From: Rhodobacteraceae bacterium S2214
Lineage (GTDB): Bacteria > Pseudomonadota > Alphaproteobacteria > Rhodobacterales > Rhodobacteraceae
Assembly: GCA_025141675.1 (NCBI GenBank)
Contig: CP081161.1
Location: 1,338,001 to 1,402,000, forward strand
DNA length: 64,000 nt
Direction: 5' to 3'
Each line of letters starts with the position of its first letter. Position 1 is the first letter of the stretch. Under the pieces are notes generated by a model. It worked only from the letters and a program-made list of their open reading frames with translations, was not told the origin of the DNA and ran no database searches. Made by a program: the position numbers and the translations under genes. Below, one piece after another: positions 20,501-41,384 of the stretch.

Positions 20501-21391
20501 TTAATCTTGCGTCGTGACGAAAACGCCGGTTTCGGTCTGGTCGCGCGTTGTGCCAGTGTACGCGTGATTGATCGAAACTGAACCCGTGATTGCTTCAGCC
20601 GCATCGCCGGACGCTGCCGCATTCCATGACCCGTTGATCGTGGAATTCTGCGGCGTATATCCGGACGCCTGAATTGTACCACCTAACGTGCCACCACCAT
20701 AAGGGGCATTGCTGCGTCCGCCCGTTAGCTCCAATCGACCAAGCGTCACATCCGCAAGATCGAAAATCTCATTGTTGCTTGCCGTTCTGTACGCGGTACG
20801 GTTCGAAATGCGCCCATCCAACACTTCGTTTCCGAAATCGGCGGTGATAGAGACGTCACCGGTCACATAGTTCGAAGTATAATTCGGGTTTAGCGTGCCC
20901 GATCCCAAGGTCAACGTGCCCACATAATCGCCGCTATAATTGGCGTTGCCGGTCAAGGGGATGGATCCGCCTGTCGTGATAAATTCGGATTGGGGGGCGT
21001 AAGACAGGTTGCCCCGATCATCCATAAATCCGGTCAAACGGGCCACAGCGCCTCCTGGACCCTTTGCTTCGAACATCCGCCAGCGGGGGCCGCTATCGGT
21101 GTTGGAAAATGATGAAAACGTGGAACCGTTCAAAGCATCCACATCCTCAAGGGTCAACGCATAGGTGGTCGTGTCCCCATCCGATGGACGGGTGCGCAAA
21201 ACCGTACGGGTATCACCTGCCTCGACCCAATCGGAAAAGACCGACGCAGAGGCAACATCGGCGCGGGCCACCGCCTGGGTTGTCGGGGCAGGGGGATCAG
21301 GATTGTCGAATTCGGGTTGCGTCGTCGTGCCGCCACAAGCGGCGAGGGTTAAGGGGACGAGTAATAGCGCGAAATTGCGTGAAAATGTCAT
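20501..21391 (-). CDS. TbpB-like surface lipoprotein 1 (predicted Slam/type XI cargo)
   Basis: The 296-residue protein has a lipoprotein signal with lipobox L-A-A-C followed by glycine-threonine-rich linker. The rest is beta-rich with alternating glycine and aromatic residues, and the second half shows the repeated pattern of TbpB/factor-H-binding-type eight-stranded barrels (G-D-V-S-I-T-A-D-F-G-N, L-D-G-R-I-S-N-R-T, T-L-G-G-T-I, S-I-N-G-type strands). It ends in E-T-G-V-F-V-T-T-Q-D, matching the ends of the two other lipoproteins in this window. The ATG at 21391 is preferred because a GGAAGG site lies eight bases upstream; the frame itself opens at a TTG six bases earlier. No translocon gene is adjacent. 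Confidence 0.75.
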   Translation of the reverse strand: MTFSRNFALLLVPLTLAACGGTTTQPEFDNPDPPAPTTQAVARADVASASVFSDWVEAGDTRTVLRTRPSDGDTTTYALTLEDVDALNGSTFSSFSNTDSGPRWRMFEAKGPGGAVARLTGFMDDRGNLSYAPQSEFITTGGSIPLTGNANYSGDYVGTLTLGSGTLNPNYTSNYVTGDVSITADFGNEVLDGRISNRTAYRTASNNEIFDLADVTLGRLELTGGRSNAPYGGGTLGGTIQASGYTPQNSTINGSWNAAASGDAAEAITGSVSINHAYTGTTRDQTETGVFVTTQD

Positions 21392-21397
21392 GATCAA

Positions 21398-21788: not shown

Positions 21789-21792
<4 letters not shown>
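21535..21792 (-). CDS. Hypothetical protein coupled to parE
   Basis: The 85-residue reading frame starts in an ATGA overlap with the parE stop codon, which is the main reason to accept it. The sequence is beta-strand-like in the middle (VRMKVQMRYADGKTNYCLRT) with a helical C-terminal segment. I see no signal peptide, membrane helix or known motif. Codon use is less GC-biased than in parE. It may be a real small protein of unknown role or a marginal reading frame kept open by chance. Confidence 0.5.
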
Positions 21793-23756
<1,964 letters not shown>

Positions 23757-23846
23757 ACTGCCGCCCCTTATTTGTTTGGACGCATTATGATGTGCGGCGT
23801 GGATAAGGGCAATCGCATCCTTGCCCTTATCCACAAGATGTTGGGT

Positions 23847-31998: not shown

Positions 31999-32739
31999 TC
32001 AACCGCGTGGATTAGGGGATGGCGGTGGTGCCGCATCCCCGATCATTTGAGATAGAAGTTCTCTGATCAATTTCCGACGCATTGTGTCTTCGTAATCAGC
32101 AAAGCCATCGGCGACTTCGGTGAACGATCCTGGTCCCCGAATGACTTCGTCTTGGAAGAAAGCCACAAGGTCGTCCCGCGTTTCAAGAATGGACGCATCG
32201 ACGACCAAACCATTCACCGTCACGTTGTCAAACGCAAAAGCATTGTAGGCTTCGGCAGGGCCAAAACCGTCATTGTTTTTACCGTCTCCGGCGATATCAA
32301 CGGTTTTTGCGAAACAATCAGGCCGTTCGCGTAGCCGCGTTGCGGCATAGCCAAGCGCGTAGCCCATTGCGGTTGGGAAATCGCGCTGACCGCGCGTCGA
32401 ATTTGCGATATTTCTCGATACGTCCTGCAAATCTTGTTCACGCGTTATGTCACGCCATTCGACCAAGACTTTTTGGTGATAACGCCCGCTCCATTCATAG
32501 ACCAGCAAAGCAACGGGATCGTCTGTCACGAAAAACGCGCTTTGTACGTCAGGGGCAAGTAGGGCGCTGGCAAGACCTTGGCGCTGTAATTGATCTTCGG
32601 CTTCGTCGACAGAATTCGAGACATCAATCGCGAGAACCAGCGCCAAACGGCAGGCTTGCGCGGGCAATGCTGCCCACGCAAATATCAAACAAAAGACAGC
32701 GTGTCTTACCAATGGCCGGTGTTTTCCATGCTCGCCCAT
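31999..32739 (-). CDS. Exported DUF1194 (von Willebrand A-like) protein
   Basis: The 246-residue protein has a signal peptide (hydrophobic core near residues 12-28, cleavage around A-Q-A) followed by a VWA-type domain. The MIDAS metal site motif D-x-S-x-S is visible as A-I-D-V-S-N-S-V-D near residue 37, with the later threonine/aspartate motif in D-I-A-G-D-G-K-N-N-D-G. DUF1194 proteins are periplasmic or secreted metal-binding modules of unknown role. The start lies within the last codons of the gloA gene; a TTG at 32712 is an alternative start. Confidence 0.82.
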   Translation of the reverse strand: MGEHGKHRPLVRHAVFCLIFAWAALPAQACRLALVLAIDVSNSVDEAEDQLQRQGLASALLAPDVQSAFFVTDDPVALLVYEWSGRYHQKVLVEWRDITREQDLQDVSRNIANSTRGQRDFPTAMGYALGYAATRLRERPDCFAKTVDIAGDGKNNDGFGPAEAYNAFAFDNVTVNGLVVDASILETRDDLVAFFQDEVIRGPGSFTEVADGFADYEDTMRRKLIRELLSQMIGDAAPPPSPNPRG

Positions 32740-33134
32740 GGTTCTTGAGCGGGTAGGTTTTCACCTTCTTGCAGCAGTTCGATAGACACATTGTCTGGTG
32801 AGCGGACAAAAGCCATATGGCCATCGCGTGGCGGTCGGTTAATTGTCACGCCATTGTCCATAAGATGCTGGCACAACGCATAAATATTGGATGTGCGATA
32901 GGCGAGGTGACCAAAGTGGCGGCTGTCGGATGGCAGGCCATCGTCGCCGTCCCAGTTATACGTTAGCTCAACCGGACAATCTTCGTCGCCGGGGGCGGCC
33001 ATGAATAGTAGCGTAAAGCGACCACCTTCATTTTCGTGCCGCTTTGTTTCTTTCATCCCGAGCAGTTCAAAAAACGCGATAGACGCGTCTAGGTCTTTCA
33101 CGCGCACCATGGTGTGCAAATATTTAAGTGACAT
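32706..33134 (-). CDS. gloA: Lactoylglutathione lyase (glyoxalase I)
   Basis: GloA converts the methylglyoxal-glutathione adduct to lactoylglutathione. The 142-residue size and the metal ligands are all visible: the histidine in Y-L-H-T-M-V-R-V (about residue 6), the glutamate in V-E-L-T-Y-N-W, the histidine in H-F-G-H-L-A-Y and the C-terminal glutamate in V-S-I-E-L-L-Q. AAGGAG precedes the ATG at 33134. The C-terminal extension after the last ligand is short. It overlaps the DUF1194 gene downstream. Confidence 0.93.
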   Translation of the reverse strand: MSLKYLHTMVRVKDLDASIAFFELLGMKETKRHENEGGRFTLLFMAAPGDEDCPVELTYNWDGDDGLPSDSRHFGHLAYRTSNIYALCQHLMDNGVTINRPPRDGHMAFVRSPDNVSIELLQEGENLPAQEPWASMENTGHW

Positions 33135-33197
33135 TAAAGGCTCCTTGATTGTGGTCACAACCTAGGGCGCTGTTGCGCTTTGGCCAAGCGCAATCGG

Positions 33198-34580
33198 TCA
33201 GAACGATGACGTGATATCAAACCCAAAGTTCGTGAATTCGCGGTCAAACAGGTCGATCGACGATTCTTGAACTGTGCGTTCGATGTTCACAACCGGCTGG
33301 AAGCCAAGATATTCGATATCAGTGAAAACCGCACGAACGCTGGCGGATTTGATCGTCTCATCTCGCCCAAATAAAGGACTAAAGCGGGACGCTTCGAAAT
33401 CGCGTGCTTCGTAGCTGAAGGTCGTGCCGATTTGCACACCGAATAGCGGCTCTGGGAAATCATAGTTGATGCCAACGCGGGCGGAATCATAGTCCGCGTC
33501 ACGGTTGTTTGACTGGCTATCGCGCACCGCAATCGACACCGCCAAGTTACCATAGTCGGCAAGGTCACGCGCCCAAACCGTTTGCAGGTTATAGGTCATG
33601 ACCGGATCACTGTCTTCGAGGCTGGTTTGCTTTTGCGCAAAGCCGGACAGCAGGATCGTATCTCTATCCGACAACTTCCACGACTGGGATGCCGATGCTG
33701 TTACAAAGCGCGCGTTCGCATCGCCGCCATACCAGCTTTGTCCAAAGGACAGCGTCGCACTGGTCGGTTGCATGTCTGGCGAAAGGATGAAGCGGTGCGT
33801 AGCGCCAAGACTGAGCGTCGCGTTTGAAAAATCACTGCCTGTGACGCCTTCGCCAGCTTGGTCTTTTGCATTTTCCGTTAGCCAATAGGTGCGGCCGGAA
33901 AACCCGAGGTCCAAGAATGTCGCTGACGTTTCATTCGTATGGGCGCGATAACGCAAGTTTGCACTCGCTGAGGCTTCCCAACCGGATAACGCGCGTGCAT
34001 CGCCGTTGAGTACGAAGGGCAGACCAAGATCGAAAAGATCGGTCGTCTCGCTGGAGCTGCCATTGTTTACGTTTGTCGATGGCGTGATGCCGAAACGCAA
34101 ATTGACGGACAGCGGATTGCGCGACCGAACGGCGCGGAAATCGCGTGCGACCGCTTCACGCGCCTGATCGTTTGGCGCATCTTGCCGCGCCAAACGCAAC
34201 CAAGCTTGGGACCGCGTATAGTTTTCTTGTTCGACGTGCGCGAATGCGACCAAACGTGCCGCCGAGAACCGTTGATTTGCTGTCGCTGCATTCCAATGTG
34301 CACGGCTACCGAATTCAACAGCACCCGCAAAATCCTCCGCAAGTAGTGCAGCTTCGGTGCGTAAAATGAGCGCGCCTGCGTTTTGGGGATCACGTTCAAG
34401 GAGCGCGTTGGCCGCTTGTGCGGCTACGCGTGCATCACCTTGTTGCAGAGCGGCAAGCGCGATTTGCTGAACTTGTCCTGCAGTCAATTGCACCTGCTGG
34501 GATACAGCCGGTGAAACGCTTAGGGTTGCCGCAACAATGGCGGCGCAGACGCGCCGCCCCAATTGTTTAACGTGTGGCAA
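33198..34580 (-). CDS. Slam-like outer-membrane lipoprotein translocon (type XI secretion, DUF560 barrel)
   Basis: The 460-residue protein has a signal peptide (cleavage near S-P-A-V-S-Q), a periplasmic TPR-like helical region (about 30-145, with A-A-Q-A-A-N-A-L-L-E-R-D-P-Q-N-A-G-A-L and similar repeats) and a C-terminal beta-barrel of about 300 residues ending in phenylalanine, as expected for BAM substrates. TPR followed by a 14-strand DUF560 barrel is the surface lipoprotein assembly modifier (Slam) architecture; Slam proteins move specific lipoproteins to the cell surface. Late barrel strands such as A-R-V-G-I-N-Y-D-F-P and Y-L-G-F-Q-P-V-V-N-I-E fit the family. It starts with TTG behind a GGAGG site and overlaps the lipoprotein gene upstream by 14 bases. 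Confidence 0.85.
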   Translation of the reverse strand: MPHVKQLGRRVCAAIVAATLSVSPAVSQQVQLTAGQVQQIALAALQQGDARVAAQAANALLERDPQNAGALILRTEAALLAEDFAGAVEFGSRAHWNAATANQRFSAARLVAFAHVEQENYTRSQAWLRLARQDAPNDQAREAVARDFRAVRSRNPLSVNLRFGITPSTNVNNGSSSETTDLFDLGLPFVLNGDARALSGWEASASANLRYRAHTNETSATFLDLGFSGRTYWLTENAKDQAGEGVTGSDFSNATLSLGATHRFILSPDMQPTSATLSFGQSWYGGDANARFVTASASQSWKLSDRDTILLSGFAQKQTSLEDSDPVMTYNLQTVWARDLADYGNLAVSIAVRDSQSNNRDADYDSARVGINYDFPEPLFGVQIGTTFSYEARDFEASRFSPLFGRDETIKSASVRAVFTDIEYLGFQPVVNIERTVQESSIDLFDREFTNFGFDITSSF

Positions 34581-35688
34581 TAAAGCCTCCGGTCTCTTGG
34601 AAGTTTACACCCTGAAAACGCGAATCTTCGGATTCGATCACGATCACACCAACAATTTCACCACCATCAGCCGCATCGGTCAGGTCACCTGCGATGATAC
34701 CAGCGTATGTTCCCGTTTCGTAGACACGGATCGCGCCAGTACGGTCGATAATTGTGTTGGAAAGGTTGCCGCCAATTTCGCCATTCTCGGAAATTGTCGT
34801 GCCGCCTTCGCGGATAATGAATGGCAGGTTCGGCAGTTGGACTGCATTTGTGCTGCCAAGCGACGCATCAATGTTGCGGTTCGTTTCAATGGCAGAACCG
34901 AATTCGTTATAGGCCTGGCGGTTGCTAAGGACGCCTTTGATACCAGGTGTTCCGTTAAAGTCGTCAAAATCGATATCAATATTGATGTCAGCGGACGTCA
35001 GGATATCACGCACGGGCAAGTCAGACGTTGAGAACGTGTCCGAAACGCGAAGTCCGGCATATGTGCCGTTGAACGTGGCTTGGCCTGTCGTCGGAACGGT
35101 GAAATCACCCGCGCGCTGATACGCAAAGGTACCAAAACCGTAGTCGCCATATCCGCCGGTCCGTACAACTGCGAATGATGTCCGGAAAGCTTGATCATCT
35201 TCACCTTCGCCAACGATGACGTCACTGACGTCGTATAAAGCAAAATATGGAACGATCTGGTCGATTTGGTTACCTGACAAGGAATCCGTAACTTGAAGAT
35301 CGCCTTGATAGACCGCAACCGTACCAATTTGCGGCAGCGCTTCGAACCGTTCGTATTGGTTCAGGCCATCAAATGCGATGCCGTCGATGACAAAAACGTC
35401 GCCATCGCCGCTATAGTTGAACAGTGATGTAACGCCCCCACCGATTTCATTCGGGGCCTCGACACGCACAATGTCGCCGCGATCAGACAATACGCCGCGC
35501 AGCGGTGGCGCAATGGTACCGGCGTTCAAGACGTCTTCTGGTTCGTCAACGTCATCCGGCTCTACGTCCTGAAAGGGGATGTCTGTTTCGGTCCCATCTG
35601 TCGCGTCTTCGACATCAAAAAGCGGCTGTCCATCGCCACAAGCCGCGAGAACGGCCAGCATGGCCAGTGTAAGTGGGGTGCGTGTCAT
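34567..35688 (-). CDS. TbpB-like surface lipoprotein 2, Slam-linked cargo
   Basis: The 373-residue product has a lipoprotein signal (MTRTPLTLAMLAVLAACGDG, lipobox L-A-A-C) and an acidic linker rich in Asp/Glu. The C-terminal two thirds are beta-rich with TbpB-type barrel strands (Q-A-T-F-N-G-T-Y-A-G-L, D-I-N-I-D-I-D-F-D-D, G-V-L-S-N-R-Q-A-Y, G-T-Y-A-G-I-I-A-G-D-L) and the end E-T-G-G-F-I-A-T-R. Being directly upstream of and overlapping the Slam gene is the classic cargo position. In other bacteria such cargos bind host or environmental ligands (transferrin, haem carriers); the ligand here is unknown. The upstream extension of the frame to 35790 has no family match. Confidence 0.85.
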   Translation of the reverse strand: MTRTPLTLAMLAVLAACGDGQPLFDVEDATDGTETDIPFQDVEPDDVDEPEDVLNAGTIAPPLRGVLSDRGDIVRVEAPNEIGGGVTSLFNYSGDGDVFVIDGIAFDGLNQYERFEALPQIGTVAVYQGDLQVTDSLSGNQIDQIVPYFALYDVSDVIVGEGEDDQAFRTSFAVVRTGGYGDYGFGTFAYQRAGDFTVPTTGQATFNGTYAGLRVSDTFSTSDLPVRDILTSADINIDIDFDDFNGTPGIKGVLSNRQAYNEFGSAIETNRNIDASLGSTNAVQLPNLPFIIREGGTTISENGEIGGNLSNTIIDRTGAIRVYETGTYAGIIAGDLTDAADGGEIVGVIVIESEDSRFQGVNFQETGGFIATR

Positions 35689-36070
35689 AGGTGGCGTCCG
35701 CTTTTTCTGCAAAGTCAAGATTTGTGTCACTCTCGTGTTTGGGGGGCTGCGTGTCAACGTGCGAGAGGCGAAAATATACGCATTTTCCACGTGATATCGC
35801 GGATTTTCGGCAACGCCGCCCTATATGTAGTTGTCTGATGACAGATCAAAATGGCAATTTTTAGGCCTGAAATAGCTGTAGCAAGACATTTCCATTCCAC
35901 CACACGTTGCGCGAAAATGGTTAATTATTCATGTGTTTGCACGGTGTTTTTGTCTGGATCGGCGGTAAATCGCGGGTCTTGATTCCAGTAGTACCCTTGT
36001 CGGTCCTGCCTGCTCCGTTAAGTCTTGCCCTCACAAGGCGCCGCGATTCGAGCGTCACAAGGGGACCGGC
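35689..36070. other. Divergent promoter region between the Slam operon and thyA-folA
   Basis: This 382-base interval must hold promoters for both directions. It is AT-rich around 35760-35930. I searched by eye for Fur, Irr-type or RirA-type iron boxes and saw none that I would defend. A TTGACA hexamer on the - strand lies near 35752-35757 but lacks a good partner -10. A 90-codon + strand frame running into thyA is not convincing. Confidence 0.45.
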
Positions 36071-36877
36071 ATGCAAGAATATCTTAACGCACTTCGAACC
36101 GTTCTGGACAAAGGGGTGCCGTCTGATGACCGGACCGGCACCGGCACGACGTCGTACTTCGGGATGCAATGTCGCTACGATCTGCGCGACGGCTTCCCAC
36201 TAGTGACGACGAAGAAGCTGCATCTCAAGTCCATTATCCATGAACTGCTGTGGTTTCTCGCTGGTGATACAAACATCGGGTATTTGACGGAAAACGGTGT
36301 CCGCATCTGGGATGAATGGGCCGATGCCGATGGTGATTTGGGGCCGGTATACGGTTACCAATGGCGGCACTTTCCACAGGTGAAGAACGGGGCGCTAGTG
36401 GGCGAGATCGACCAGATTTCAGCGCTGGTGGAGGCGATCAAAACCAACCCATCGTCGCGCCGTCATATCGTGTCCGCATGGAACCCCGGCGACGTTGACG
36501 ACATGGCGCTGCCGCCGTGCCATACGTTGTGGCAGGTGCGCGTGCAGGGCGACACGATGCACATGCAGCTTTATCAACGCTCTGCCGATATGTTCCTTGG
36601 GGTGCCGTTCAACATCGCGTCCTACGCACTGCTGCTGGAAATGCTGGCCCATGTGACGGGATACAAAGCGGGTGAATTCATCCACACGATGGGCGACGCG
36701 CATATCTATTCGAACCACATGGATCAGGTCGCGACCCAGCTTGCGCGCACGCCGCACGAAGCCCCGCGTTTGGTCATAAAACGGAAAGTCGACAGCATCT
36801 TTGACTTCAAGTTCGACGACTTTGCGTTCGAAAACTACAATCCAGAACCGGTGATCAAAGCGCCGGTGGCGGTTTAG
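36071..36877 (+). CDS. thyA: Thymidylate synthase (ThyA)
   Basis: ThyA methylates dUMP to dTMP with methylene-tetrahydrofolate. The 268-residue size fits. The phosphate-binding D-D-R-T-G-T-G-T arginine loop is near residues 20-27, the catalytic cysteine is in L-P-P-C-H-T-L-W-Q (about 150), and the [16 protein letters not shown] motif is present. AAGGGGA precedes the ATG. folA follows after three bases, which pairs dTMP synthesis with the regeneration of the tetrahydrofolate it consumes. The thymidine kinase gene for salvage is also in this window. Confidence 0.96.
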
Positions 36878-38605: not shown

Positions 38606-40555
38606 TCAGCTTCGTAGGTCGGGTGGGGTGGCTTCTAGGCCGAGATCTTTGACGATCTCGTCGAGGGCAATCACCTTGGTCTGCTTTTCACCCAAACGAC
38701 GCAGGTTGACGGTCCGTTCTTCAACTTCACGCGCGCCGATCGCGAGGATCGCAGGCACCTTGCCAAGCGAATGTTCGCGGACCTTATAGTTGATCTTTTC
38801 GTTGCGAATGTCGGCTTCAGCCCGCACGCCCGCAGCTTTCAGCGCCGCAACAACTTCATGCACGTAGTCATTGGCGTCCGAGATGATCGAGGCCACGACG
38901 ACCTGACGCGGTGCCAGCCAGAACGGCAGTTTGCCCGCGTGTTCCTCGATCAGAATGCCGATAAAGCGTTCAAAGGATCCGAGGGTCGCGCGGTGCAGCA
39001 TGACCGGCTGATGTTTGTTGCCATCCTGTCCGATATAACTCGCGTCGAGCCGTTCGGGCAGGTTTGCGTCCACCTGAAGTGTGCCACATTGCCAGTCGCG
39101 GCCAATCGCGTCGGTTAGTGTGAATTCAAGCTTTGGCCCGTAGAACGCGCCTTCACCTTCGAGGATTTCAAACTCATGCCCTGCCGCACGACATGCATCG
39201 CCAAGCGCTGCTTCCATCTGGTCCCAAGTCTCGTCCGACCCGATCCGTTTTTCAGGACGTGTGGACAGTTTGATGGTCCAGTCGTCAAAGCCGAGATCGC
39301 TGTAGACGCGGGACAGGAAGTCGATGAAGACCTTGGTTTCCGCAGTGATCTGGTCATCGGCGCAGAAGATGTGCCCATCGTCTTGGGTAAAGCCGCGCAC
39401 GCGCATGATGCCGTGCAGCGCGCCTGACGGCTCATACCGTGCGCAAGACCCGAATTCGGCCATGCGCAGCGGCAGGTCGCGGTAAGATTTCAAGCCTTGG
39501 TTAAAGATTTGCACGTGGCACGGGCAGTTCATCGGCTTGAGCGCGTTGACCGCTTTTTCACGTGCATGATCTTCGTCAACTTCGACGATGAACATGTTTT
39601 CTTGGTACTTTTCCCAGTGACCTGACGCTTCCCACAATTTGCGGTCCACGACTTGTGGCGTGTTCACTTCGACGTAGCCGCCTTTGCGCTGTTGGCGGCG
39701 CATGTAGTCTTGCAGTTCGGTGTACACCTGCCAGCCGTTAGGGTGCCAGAAGACCTGACCGGGCGCTTCTTCTTGCATATGGAACAAGTCCATTTCGCGA
39801 CCCAACTTGCGGTGATCACGCAAGGCAGCTTCTTCCAGACGGTGCAAGTGTTGTTTCAGACCTTCTTTGTTGGTGAAGGCCGCGCCGTAGATACGTTGCA
39901 ACATCGGACGGTCGCTGTCGCCGCGCCAGTAGGCACCTGCGATGGACATCAGTTTGAAGCAATCACCCGCGATCTGCCCAGTGTGCTGCAGGTGCGGTCC
40001 ACGACACAGGTCTTGCCAGTCGCCATGCCAATACATGCGTAGCGGTTCATCACCCGGGATGCTTTCGATGAGTTCGACCTTGTACGGTTCGCCCTTATCT
40101 TTGTAGTGCTGGATTGCCCGTGGGCGATCCCAAATCTCGGTTCGGACTTCATCGCGCTTGTTGATGATTTCCTTCATCTTCTTTTCAATAGTCGCGAGAT
40201 CTTCGGGAACGAAAGGTTCTTTGCGATCAAAGTCGTAGTACCAACCGTCTTTGATCACAGGCCCGATAGTGACCTGCACATCTGGCCACAATTCTTGGAC
40301 TGCACGCGCCATGATGTGCGCTAGATCGTGGCGAACAAGTTCCAGTGCTTGCTCTTCATCTTTCATGGTGTGCAGCGCGATGGACGCGTCTTCCTCAATC
40401 GGCCAATGCAGGTCGAAATGCTGCCCGTTCACGGTCGCAGAAATCGCCTTTTTGCGCAGGCTGCTTGATATATCAGCAGCTACGTCAGCGGCAGTGATGC
40501 CAGCCTCGTATTGGCGCGCGTTGCCGTCAGGAAATGTAAGAGAGATTTGGGCCAT
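38606..40555 (-). CDS. thrS: Threonyl-tRNA synthetase
   Basis: ThrS charges tRNA-Thr and edits serine. The 649-residue length is full. The order is TGS domain (residues 1-60), editing domain with [10 protein letters not shown] (near 77-86), a class II catalytic core with the zinc-ligand cysteine in L-K-P-M-N-C-P-C-H and G-S-C-A-R-Y-E, and a C-terminal anticodon-binding domain. No T-box or leader gene is evident upstream, as expected for Alphaproteobacteria. The ATG follows a GGAG-like site; the gene is monocistronic in this window. Confidence 0.97.
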
Positions 40556-40790: not shown

Positions 40791-41384
40791 ATGAGAGAGA
40801 TTTTACTGGGTTTTTTCGCTTTGGCGATCCTGTCGGCCTGTGGCGGGGGAAGTACGTCAAATCCGCCGCCAATATCTGGGATTAATGCGCTCCGCGCGGA
40901 AACGTCCCGACTTGCCGCAATAGGCGAGACGCTTGATGTCACGCCCGCCGATTCAGTTGCAGTCACCGGACGCGCCGAATTTAAAGGCGTTTTGGCGGTT
41001 GGATTGCTGCCTGACTCATATGGTGGGATCGGGTTGGGCGGTGATATGATCATGGGCGTCGACTTCGATACCGGCGATGTGACTGGCGAAGTAGTCGACT
41101 TTTACAGCCGCGATGGTGATGCACTTGACGGTGCATTGGCCCTATCGAATGGCGCGGCTTTTGCCTTTGCTGATGGCGTTTTCGTCGGTGCTGAGGTATC
41201 CGGTGACCTAGAGATTTACGGCGAAGTGAAAGACGTGGAAGGCATCATAGCCGGAGGTGTCGCAGGCGACAGCGGCGATATCGTGGCTGGGCTTGTCGAA
41301 TTGGACTATGACTGGCAACTGCCAGGCGACGGGCCAATCATTACTACGACGCTTGAGGGTGGATTCATCGTCGAACGTCAGTAG
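40791..41384 (+). CDS. TbpB-like surface lipoprotein 3, short form (predicted Slam cargo)
   Basis: The 197-residue product has a lipoprotein signal (MREILLGFFALAILSACGGG, lipobox L-S-A-C) and a single beta domain of about 150 residues. Strand patterns G-R-A-E-F-K-G-V-L-A-V-G, G-D-V-T-G-E-V-V-D-F, V-S-G-D-L-E-I-Y-G-E and the end L-E-G-G-F-I-V-E-R-Q resemble the C-terminal barrel of the two longer lipoproteins in this window. An AAGGTG site lies seven bases before the ATG. No Slam gene is adjacent; the nearest is at 33198-34580. Surface export is inferred from family resemblance. Confidence 0.7.
   Translation: MREILLGFFALAILSACGGGSTSNPPPISGINALRAETSRLAAIGETLDVTPADSVAVTGRAEFKGVLAVGLLPDSYGGIGLGGDMIMGVDFDTGDVTGEVVDFYSRDGDALDGALALSNGAAFAFADGVFVGAEVSGDLEIYGEVKDVEGIIAGGVAGDSGDIVAGLVELDYDWQLPGDGPIITTTLEGGFIVERQ

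Follow-up and report, generated by a model that had tools for sequence, protein, structure and literature searches.

A probable Slam-type (T11SS) lipoprotein operon in Rhodobacteraceae bacterium S2214 and unlinked lipoproteins resembling its cargo

Introduction

The closest described relatives of the locus reported here are the type XI (T11SS) or Slam translocons, a little-studied kind of exporter. In Neisseria a single Slam can have more than one cargo, and PMC5449769 describes Slam1 as exporting TbpB, LbpB and fHbp; the proteoliposome experiments of PMC9090332 report uptake of unfolded TbpB by Slam1 alone, with Skp helping. According to the survey of Grossman et al. (2025; PMC12282271), experimentally verified T11SS belong to the animal-associated cluster 1. 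Where that survey treats cluster 3, it counts among 145 loci a glyoxalase in 89, a DUF1194 protein in 102 and a thymidylate synthase in 77, reports a hybrid locus with a barrel lipoprotein of 282–375 aa in 10 of 11 genomes, and speaks of a 'dearth' of co-occurring cargo, put at 0.21 per outer-membrane translocon protein (OMP); its main text contains none of the terms 'unlinked', 'orphan' or 'CAP domain'. Among the papers listed by our literature searches there was no T11SS experiment on cluster 3.

Here we analyse a 64,000-nucleotide stretch (the window) of the 3.86-Mb genome of Rhodobacteraceae bacterium S2214. The kind of locus that it contains is already published, since Grossman et al. (PMC12282271) describe the same neighbourhood: in their account, cluster 3 of Rhodobacteraceae/Roseobacteraceae has the same OMP, an eight-strand-barrel lipoprotein (282–375 aa there, 373 aa here), a glyoxalase, DUF1194 and a thymidylate synthase. 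This marine cluster 3 gene set is complete in the window, with thyA replacing the flavin-dependent thyX found there. New here are a cargo profile that tracks the OMP across 198 genomes, unlike the published dearth; the finding that loci lacking the OMP usually still have DUF1194, gloA and thymidylate synthase grouped; and the co-existence of one detected OMP with unlinked barrel lipoproteins, of which three are well supported and several others weaker. The locus offers a clean non-pathogen test case for possible lipoprotein export by marine cluster 3.

Results

The pair consists of two minus-strand open reading frames, a 373-aa lipoprotein (34567..35688) and, directly downstream, a 460-aa OMP with a TTG start (33198..34580), whose positions and order are as initially annotated; the stop of the first and the start of the second overlap by 14 nt (34567..34580), and a GGAGG read by eye at 34590–34586 lies 5 nt ahead of the TTG. 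On one side are thyA (36071..36877, plus strand; PF00303, 394 bits) and folA, and on the other a gloA-like glyoxalase (32706..33131, minus strand; PF00903), which we consider to be outside the system, a DUF1194 protein (31999..32739, minus strand; PF06707, 223 bits), a MarR-type regulator, SdhE, an HTH protein and an aminotransferase. A promoter and terminator scan of 32900–36200 gave one promoter-like site, fewer than the shuffle mean of 2.0 and on the plus strand, and is uninformative; neither Rfam (at the gathering threshold) nor ARAGORN had a match in the window.

The proposed architecture of the OMP, a TPR region followed by a DUF560-like barrel, was borne out. PF04575 (SlipAM/DUF560) scored 22.7 bits, a marginal match that passes the Pfam gathering cut-off of 22 by only 0.7 bits, and was matched at E ≤ 0.01 by 33 of 50 aligned homologues. 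In an AlphaFold2 model from the 50-sequence alignment (pLDDT 92.7, pTM 0.80), seven predicted periplasmic TPR-like helices (residues 34–154; 34119..34481, minus strand) precede a predicted outer-membrane barrel of 14 strands, each of at least 10 residues (residues 157–458; 33207..34112, minus strand). TPR_16 gave 20.6 bits with the single protein, under its own cut-off of 32.7, and the OMP profile (A2) matched consensus TPR structures in the PDB with a best E of 8.7e-20. The OMP of Yoonia ponticola, of the same genus, is 66% identical. In a Foldseek search with the model, the best rows were BcsC and PelB/PelBC, which are TPR-barrel exporters, and then porins, at low TM-scores (≤0.39 by query length among the 50 matches listed), and no Slam structure was among those 50. 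One could therefore argue from the leading BcsC and PelBC rows and the marginal SlipAM match that the OMP is another TPR-barrel exporter, a BcsC/PelB-like polysaccharide secretin that merely resembles Slam. We consider this highly unlikely: the ten neighbours scanned include no polysaccharide synthesis genes, the OMP is tightly paired with lipoproteins of TbpB/HphA fold (see below), the TM-scores are low, and Slam, given its absence from the matches listed, may have been unable to win this comparison. By analogy with Slam, the OMP is very probably a T11SS translocon that moves its cargo over the outer membrane.

The signal peptide of the upstream lipoprotein ends in the lipobox L-A-A-C (35638..35649, minus strand), whose Cys17 falls in a column at least 90% identical across 60 cargo homologues; among 77 cargo–OMP pairs of at least 230 aa, 76 of them from other genomes, 71 have a lipobox by a loose definition and 52 by a strict one. 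Its AlphaFold2 model (60 sequences; pLDDT 84.9, pTM 0.84) comprises an N-terminal strand-rich domain (residues 73–182; 35143..35472, minus strand) and a C-terminal eight-strand barrel (residues 186–373; 34570..35133, minus strand), the latter a putative export signal. Homologues are on average 30% identical to the window cargo in the N-terminal domain versus 36% in the barrel, and the modelled N-terminal domain is likely to be the ligand-binding part. When the model was compared with the PDB, all 12 chains matched at E ≤ 0.001 were HphA/hemophilin, TbpB or LbpB, HphA being the best, with TM-scores that are low (0.25–0.32 by query length). Searches with the window cargo itself gave nothing in Pfam at E ≤ 1, TbpB_B_D and FHBP_C included, nothing useful in NCBIfam and none of the PDB sequences at E ≤ 1, and a homologue profile reached factor H binding proteins as its best PDB sequences at an E of only 0.06; among the 60 homologues, Pfam at E ≤ 0.1 identified TbpB_B_D in 14 and FHBP_C in 14. 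The TbpB-like barrel of the initial annotation is thus upheld by predicted fold and PDB matches but not by Pfam. In profile and fold comparisons the OMP was not placed in an unrelated porin family and the predicted cargo fold was TbpB/HphA-like, and the SlipAM match, the OMP model and the cargo fold support the Slam-type identity first suggested for the pair.

The comparison set for co-occurrence comprised 198 family genomes, one per genus, of which 101 have the OMP. Profile A1, built from 60 cargos with 50 family genomes represented, found a match in 93 of the 101 OMP-bearing genomes (window genome included) versus 2 of the 97 that lack the OMP; its sensitivity is higher in the represented genomes because it was built from their cargos, and in a control with OMP-bearing genomes that contributed no sequence to it, 42 of 50 have a match. 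For local context we took gloA loci of other genomes, the best 120 of 192 by gloA similarity, dropped 10 with short flanks, and judged gene adjacency in the remaining 110 from stop-codon positions. Of these 110 loci (from the best 120 of 192 genomes), 63 have the OMP immediately upstream of gloA. A cargo-family lipoprotein is upstream of the OMP in 59 of the 63, but beside gloA in only 2 of the 47 in which no OMP is adjacent (Fisher p 1e-23, a value that ignores shared ancestry). Across 57 loci, OMP and cargo distances are correlated (r 0.56, reached by 0 of 2000 permutations; partial r 0.56), and the corresponding correlation with gloA is 0.10 for the OMP and 0.02 for the cargo. This argues that the upstream lipoprotein is the cargo of the OMP. 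The 59 of 63 gloA-linked loci (same best 120 of 192) differ from the 0.21 cargos per OMP given in PMC12282271, a lower count that is likely due to most cargos falling under Pfam thresholds.

Among the 101 OMP-bearing genomes, 8 are without a cargo match by A1 and 6 (G067, G079, G140, G155, G160 and G180) by either A1 or A4, a second profile described below; the G180 contig begins just before the OMP. Within the genus, the OMP is found in 55 of 56 genomes and the cargo at E ≤ 0.001 in 44 of 56, with 11 of the 55 OMP-bearing genomes having no cargo match at that threshold. G115 (81% complete) and G176 (99% complete), at L135 and L160, have a cargo beside gloA and no genome-wide OMP match at E ≤ 0.001. 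In G184 (L133:8335–10874), OMP and cargo are each split into two frames and are apparently decaying jointly.

Outer-membrane barrels can have lipoproteins of the same membrane as partners, and this pair co-varies; the lipoprotein might instead face the periplasm and plug or gate a porin. Such an arrangement is extremely unlikely: the fold matches of the lipoprotein are surface or secreted T11SS cargo, and further unlinked lipoproteins of the same fold alongside one detected OMP would be odd for a one-to-one plug.

We then asked what ties the flanking genes to the OMP. At E ≤ 1e-25 gloA is found in 192 of the 198 family genomes; DUF1194 is in 162 and, as stated, the OMP in 101. A reading in which DUF1194 takes the role of cargo or partner to the OMP, and the lipoprotein is an accessory, has some precedent in the partner role that Grossman et al. 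(2025) considered for it in the cluster 3 section of PMC12282271 (102 of 145 loci), and DUF1194 is indeed somewhat commoner beside gloA where the OMP is present (50/63 versus 28/47 in loci from the best 120 of 192 genomes; Fisher p 0.03, again ignoring ancestry). It nonetheless remains in those 28 OMP-less loci, and the contrast for the lipoprotein is far steeper (59/63 versus 2/47). With longer flanks, for which 22 of the 120 gloA loci were dropped to leave 56 with and 42 without the OMP, DUF1194 was present in 46/56 versus 26/42, no more of an excess than that of the housekeeping flanks marR and aspC (each 46/56 versus 24/42), and better-kept synteny is therefore its best reading; a thymidylate synthase gene was upstream of gloA in 55/56 versus 37/42. 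The partner reading is accordingly very unlikely, and we rejected DUF1194 as cargo, since its retention in loci lacking the OMP is much like that of the other flanks. DUF1194, gloA and thymidylate synthase look like bystanders tied to the OMP by a shared chromosomal address, and the cargo–OMP pair, placed between thyX or thyA and gloA, resembles either inserted DNA or a unit that is often lost. The initial annotation took the neighbours to give no hint. Together, thyA, gloA and DUF1194 do mark the locus as cluster 3, but they are a poor guide to function, because the block is usually kept at loci from which the T11SS pair is missing. At this locus thyA sits where most relatives carry an unrelated thyX-type gene (PF02511), and among the gloA loci with longer flanks it occurs in 8/56 with the OMP and 8/42 without.

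Other cargo-like lipoproteins, overlooked by the initial annotation, occur elsewhere in the window and the genome, in which PF04575 has one match at E ≤ 10. A second, unlinked one in the window (20501..21397, minus strand; = C1:1358507) scored 117.9 bits with an iterated cargo profile and E 6e-20 with A1, and 20.5 bits with TbpB_B_D, under the cut-off of 26; it adjoins a type II topoisomerase B-subunit gene (21789–23834) and has no OMP next door. In G221, of the same genus, a similar lipoprotein with the same topoisomerase neighbour lies ~13 kb from the OMP. A possible third, small one of 197 aa (40791..41384, plus strand) adjoins a tRNA synthetase gene (38606–40555, thrS-like domains); its match to the cargo profile is weak (16.4 bits), its hhalign probability to the unlinked-cargo profile is 95 and it has no barrel match in Pfam. 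Profile A1 further identified C1:2408931 (E 1e-39), C1:577910 (5e-9) and C1:2618687 (8e-4) in the same genome, and C1:3020290 at chance level (E 0.8). We regard as well supported by A1 the unlinked lipoproteins at window 20501–21397, C1:2408931–2409647 and C1:577910–578395, and as weaker up to five small ones, namely three in tandem in C1:2617767–2620135, one at ~C1:3020290 and window 40791–41384. Lipobox-like starts are present in all unlinked A1 matches of the genome, and single-sequence Pfam searches found sub-threshold T11SS cargo domains (TbpB_B_D, FHBP_C or HphA_C) in six of seven unlinked proteins, the seventh, L231:4986–5747, having no cargo-domain match. The tandem trio (L231:4168–6536) is near transhydrogenase genes, and two of its three members have sub-threshold cargo-barrel Pfam matches.

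Profile A4 is an alignment of 21 unlinked lipoproteins of the window genome and of related genomes, its members chosen by A1-type profiles, a choice that should be kept in mind when reading its hhalign score of 99.9 against A1. At E ≤ 0.001 the PDB entries matched by A4 were those of LbpB and factor H binding protein. Matches to A4 were found in 86 of the 101 OMP-bearing genomes versus 4 of the 97 others, and are mostly linked cargos that share the barrel, so that these sequence matches at most suggest that the unlinked lipoproteins depend on the OMP. In both the A1 and A4 scans at most 11 or 12 candidates were scored per genome, and weak unlinked cargo is under-counted. The four genomes with an A4 match and no OMP are G115, G182, G195 and G196, the last (64% complete) with three close together. 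G060 has two unlinked cargo-like lipoproteins, and G061 has an OMP without adjacent cargo and one unlinked candidate, read with a stop in the A1 scan and none in the A4 scan.

Discussion

We conclude with considerable confidence that the pair is a Slam-type (T11SS) operon whose lipoprotein is carried to the surface by the OMP. Sequence and prediction underlie the lipobox, the domain order, both folds, the gene overlap, the co-occurrence and the co-variation; the translocation steps and surface exposure are inferred from Slam1–TbpB experiments in other bacteria. By that analogy, the lipoprotein would be exported through Sec, acquire its lipid at Cys17 and be transferred to the outer membrane. 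The TPR part of the OMP would take it up in the periplasm, and the 14-strand barrel would thread it outward unfolded, recognizing the C-terminal eight-strand barrel as the signal. It would then refold outside, lipid-anchored on the surface, with the N-terminal domain offered to a ligand that, as a guess, is an environmental nutrient.

The Neisseria pairs Slam1/TbpB and Slam2/HpuA, as presented in PMC5449769 and PMC9090332, likewise combine a TPR–DUF560 barrel protein with an eight-strand-barrel lipoprotein cargo. The window cargo differs from the Neisseria cargo in having one lobe with an unrelated N-terminal domain, and the ten neighbours scanned include no host-iron receptor genes. It is not a TbpB proper, with two lobes and a TbpA partner gene, as it has a single barrel and no TonB-dependent receptor is among the ten neighbours scanned. 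Its single lobe is shared with the cargo of hemophilin systems (HphA, HrpBC) as reported in PMC8406197, but HphA is described there as soluble whereas the window cargo is lipidated, and no haem receptor gene is among the ten neighbours scanned here.

The single PF04575 match and the dispersed barrel lipoproteins suggest, from sequence, that one translocon serves scattered cargo in the window genome. A broader proposal, in which the single T11SS OMP acts as a general surface-display hub for dispersed lipoproteins of a free-living marine bacterium, with a CAP lipoprotein as another cargo type in the genus, is a tentative one that we rate at slightly less than even. Should export of the unlinked lipoproteins prove to require this OMP, it would be an example of a free-living bacterium building a diverse surface with one translocon.

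The CAP lipoproteins, by their adjacency to an OMP, may possibly be cargo of a kind that lacks the eight-strand barrel. In the window genome, where the methyltransferase that flanks them is at C1:2935234, none of the best 4 of 5 CAP matches is nearby and there is no second OMP. Many other genomes of the genus have a second T11SS OMP adjoining a CAP superfamily lipoprotein (for example at L187:4203–6368), and PF00188 was found in the CAP lipoproteins of L187, L189, L199, L201 and L220. Of 27 CAP matches at E ≤ 1.7e-37, a count by eye gave 26 with an OMP no more than 1.2 kb away, 21 of them divergent and 5 convergent.
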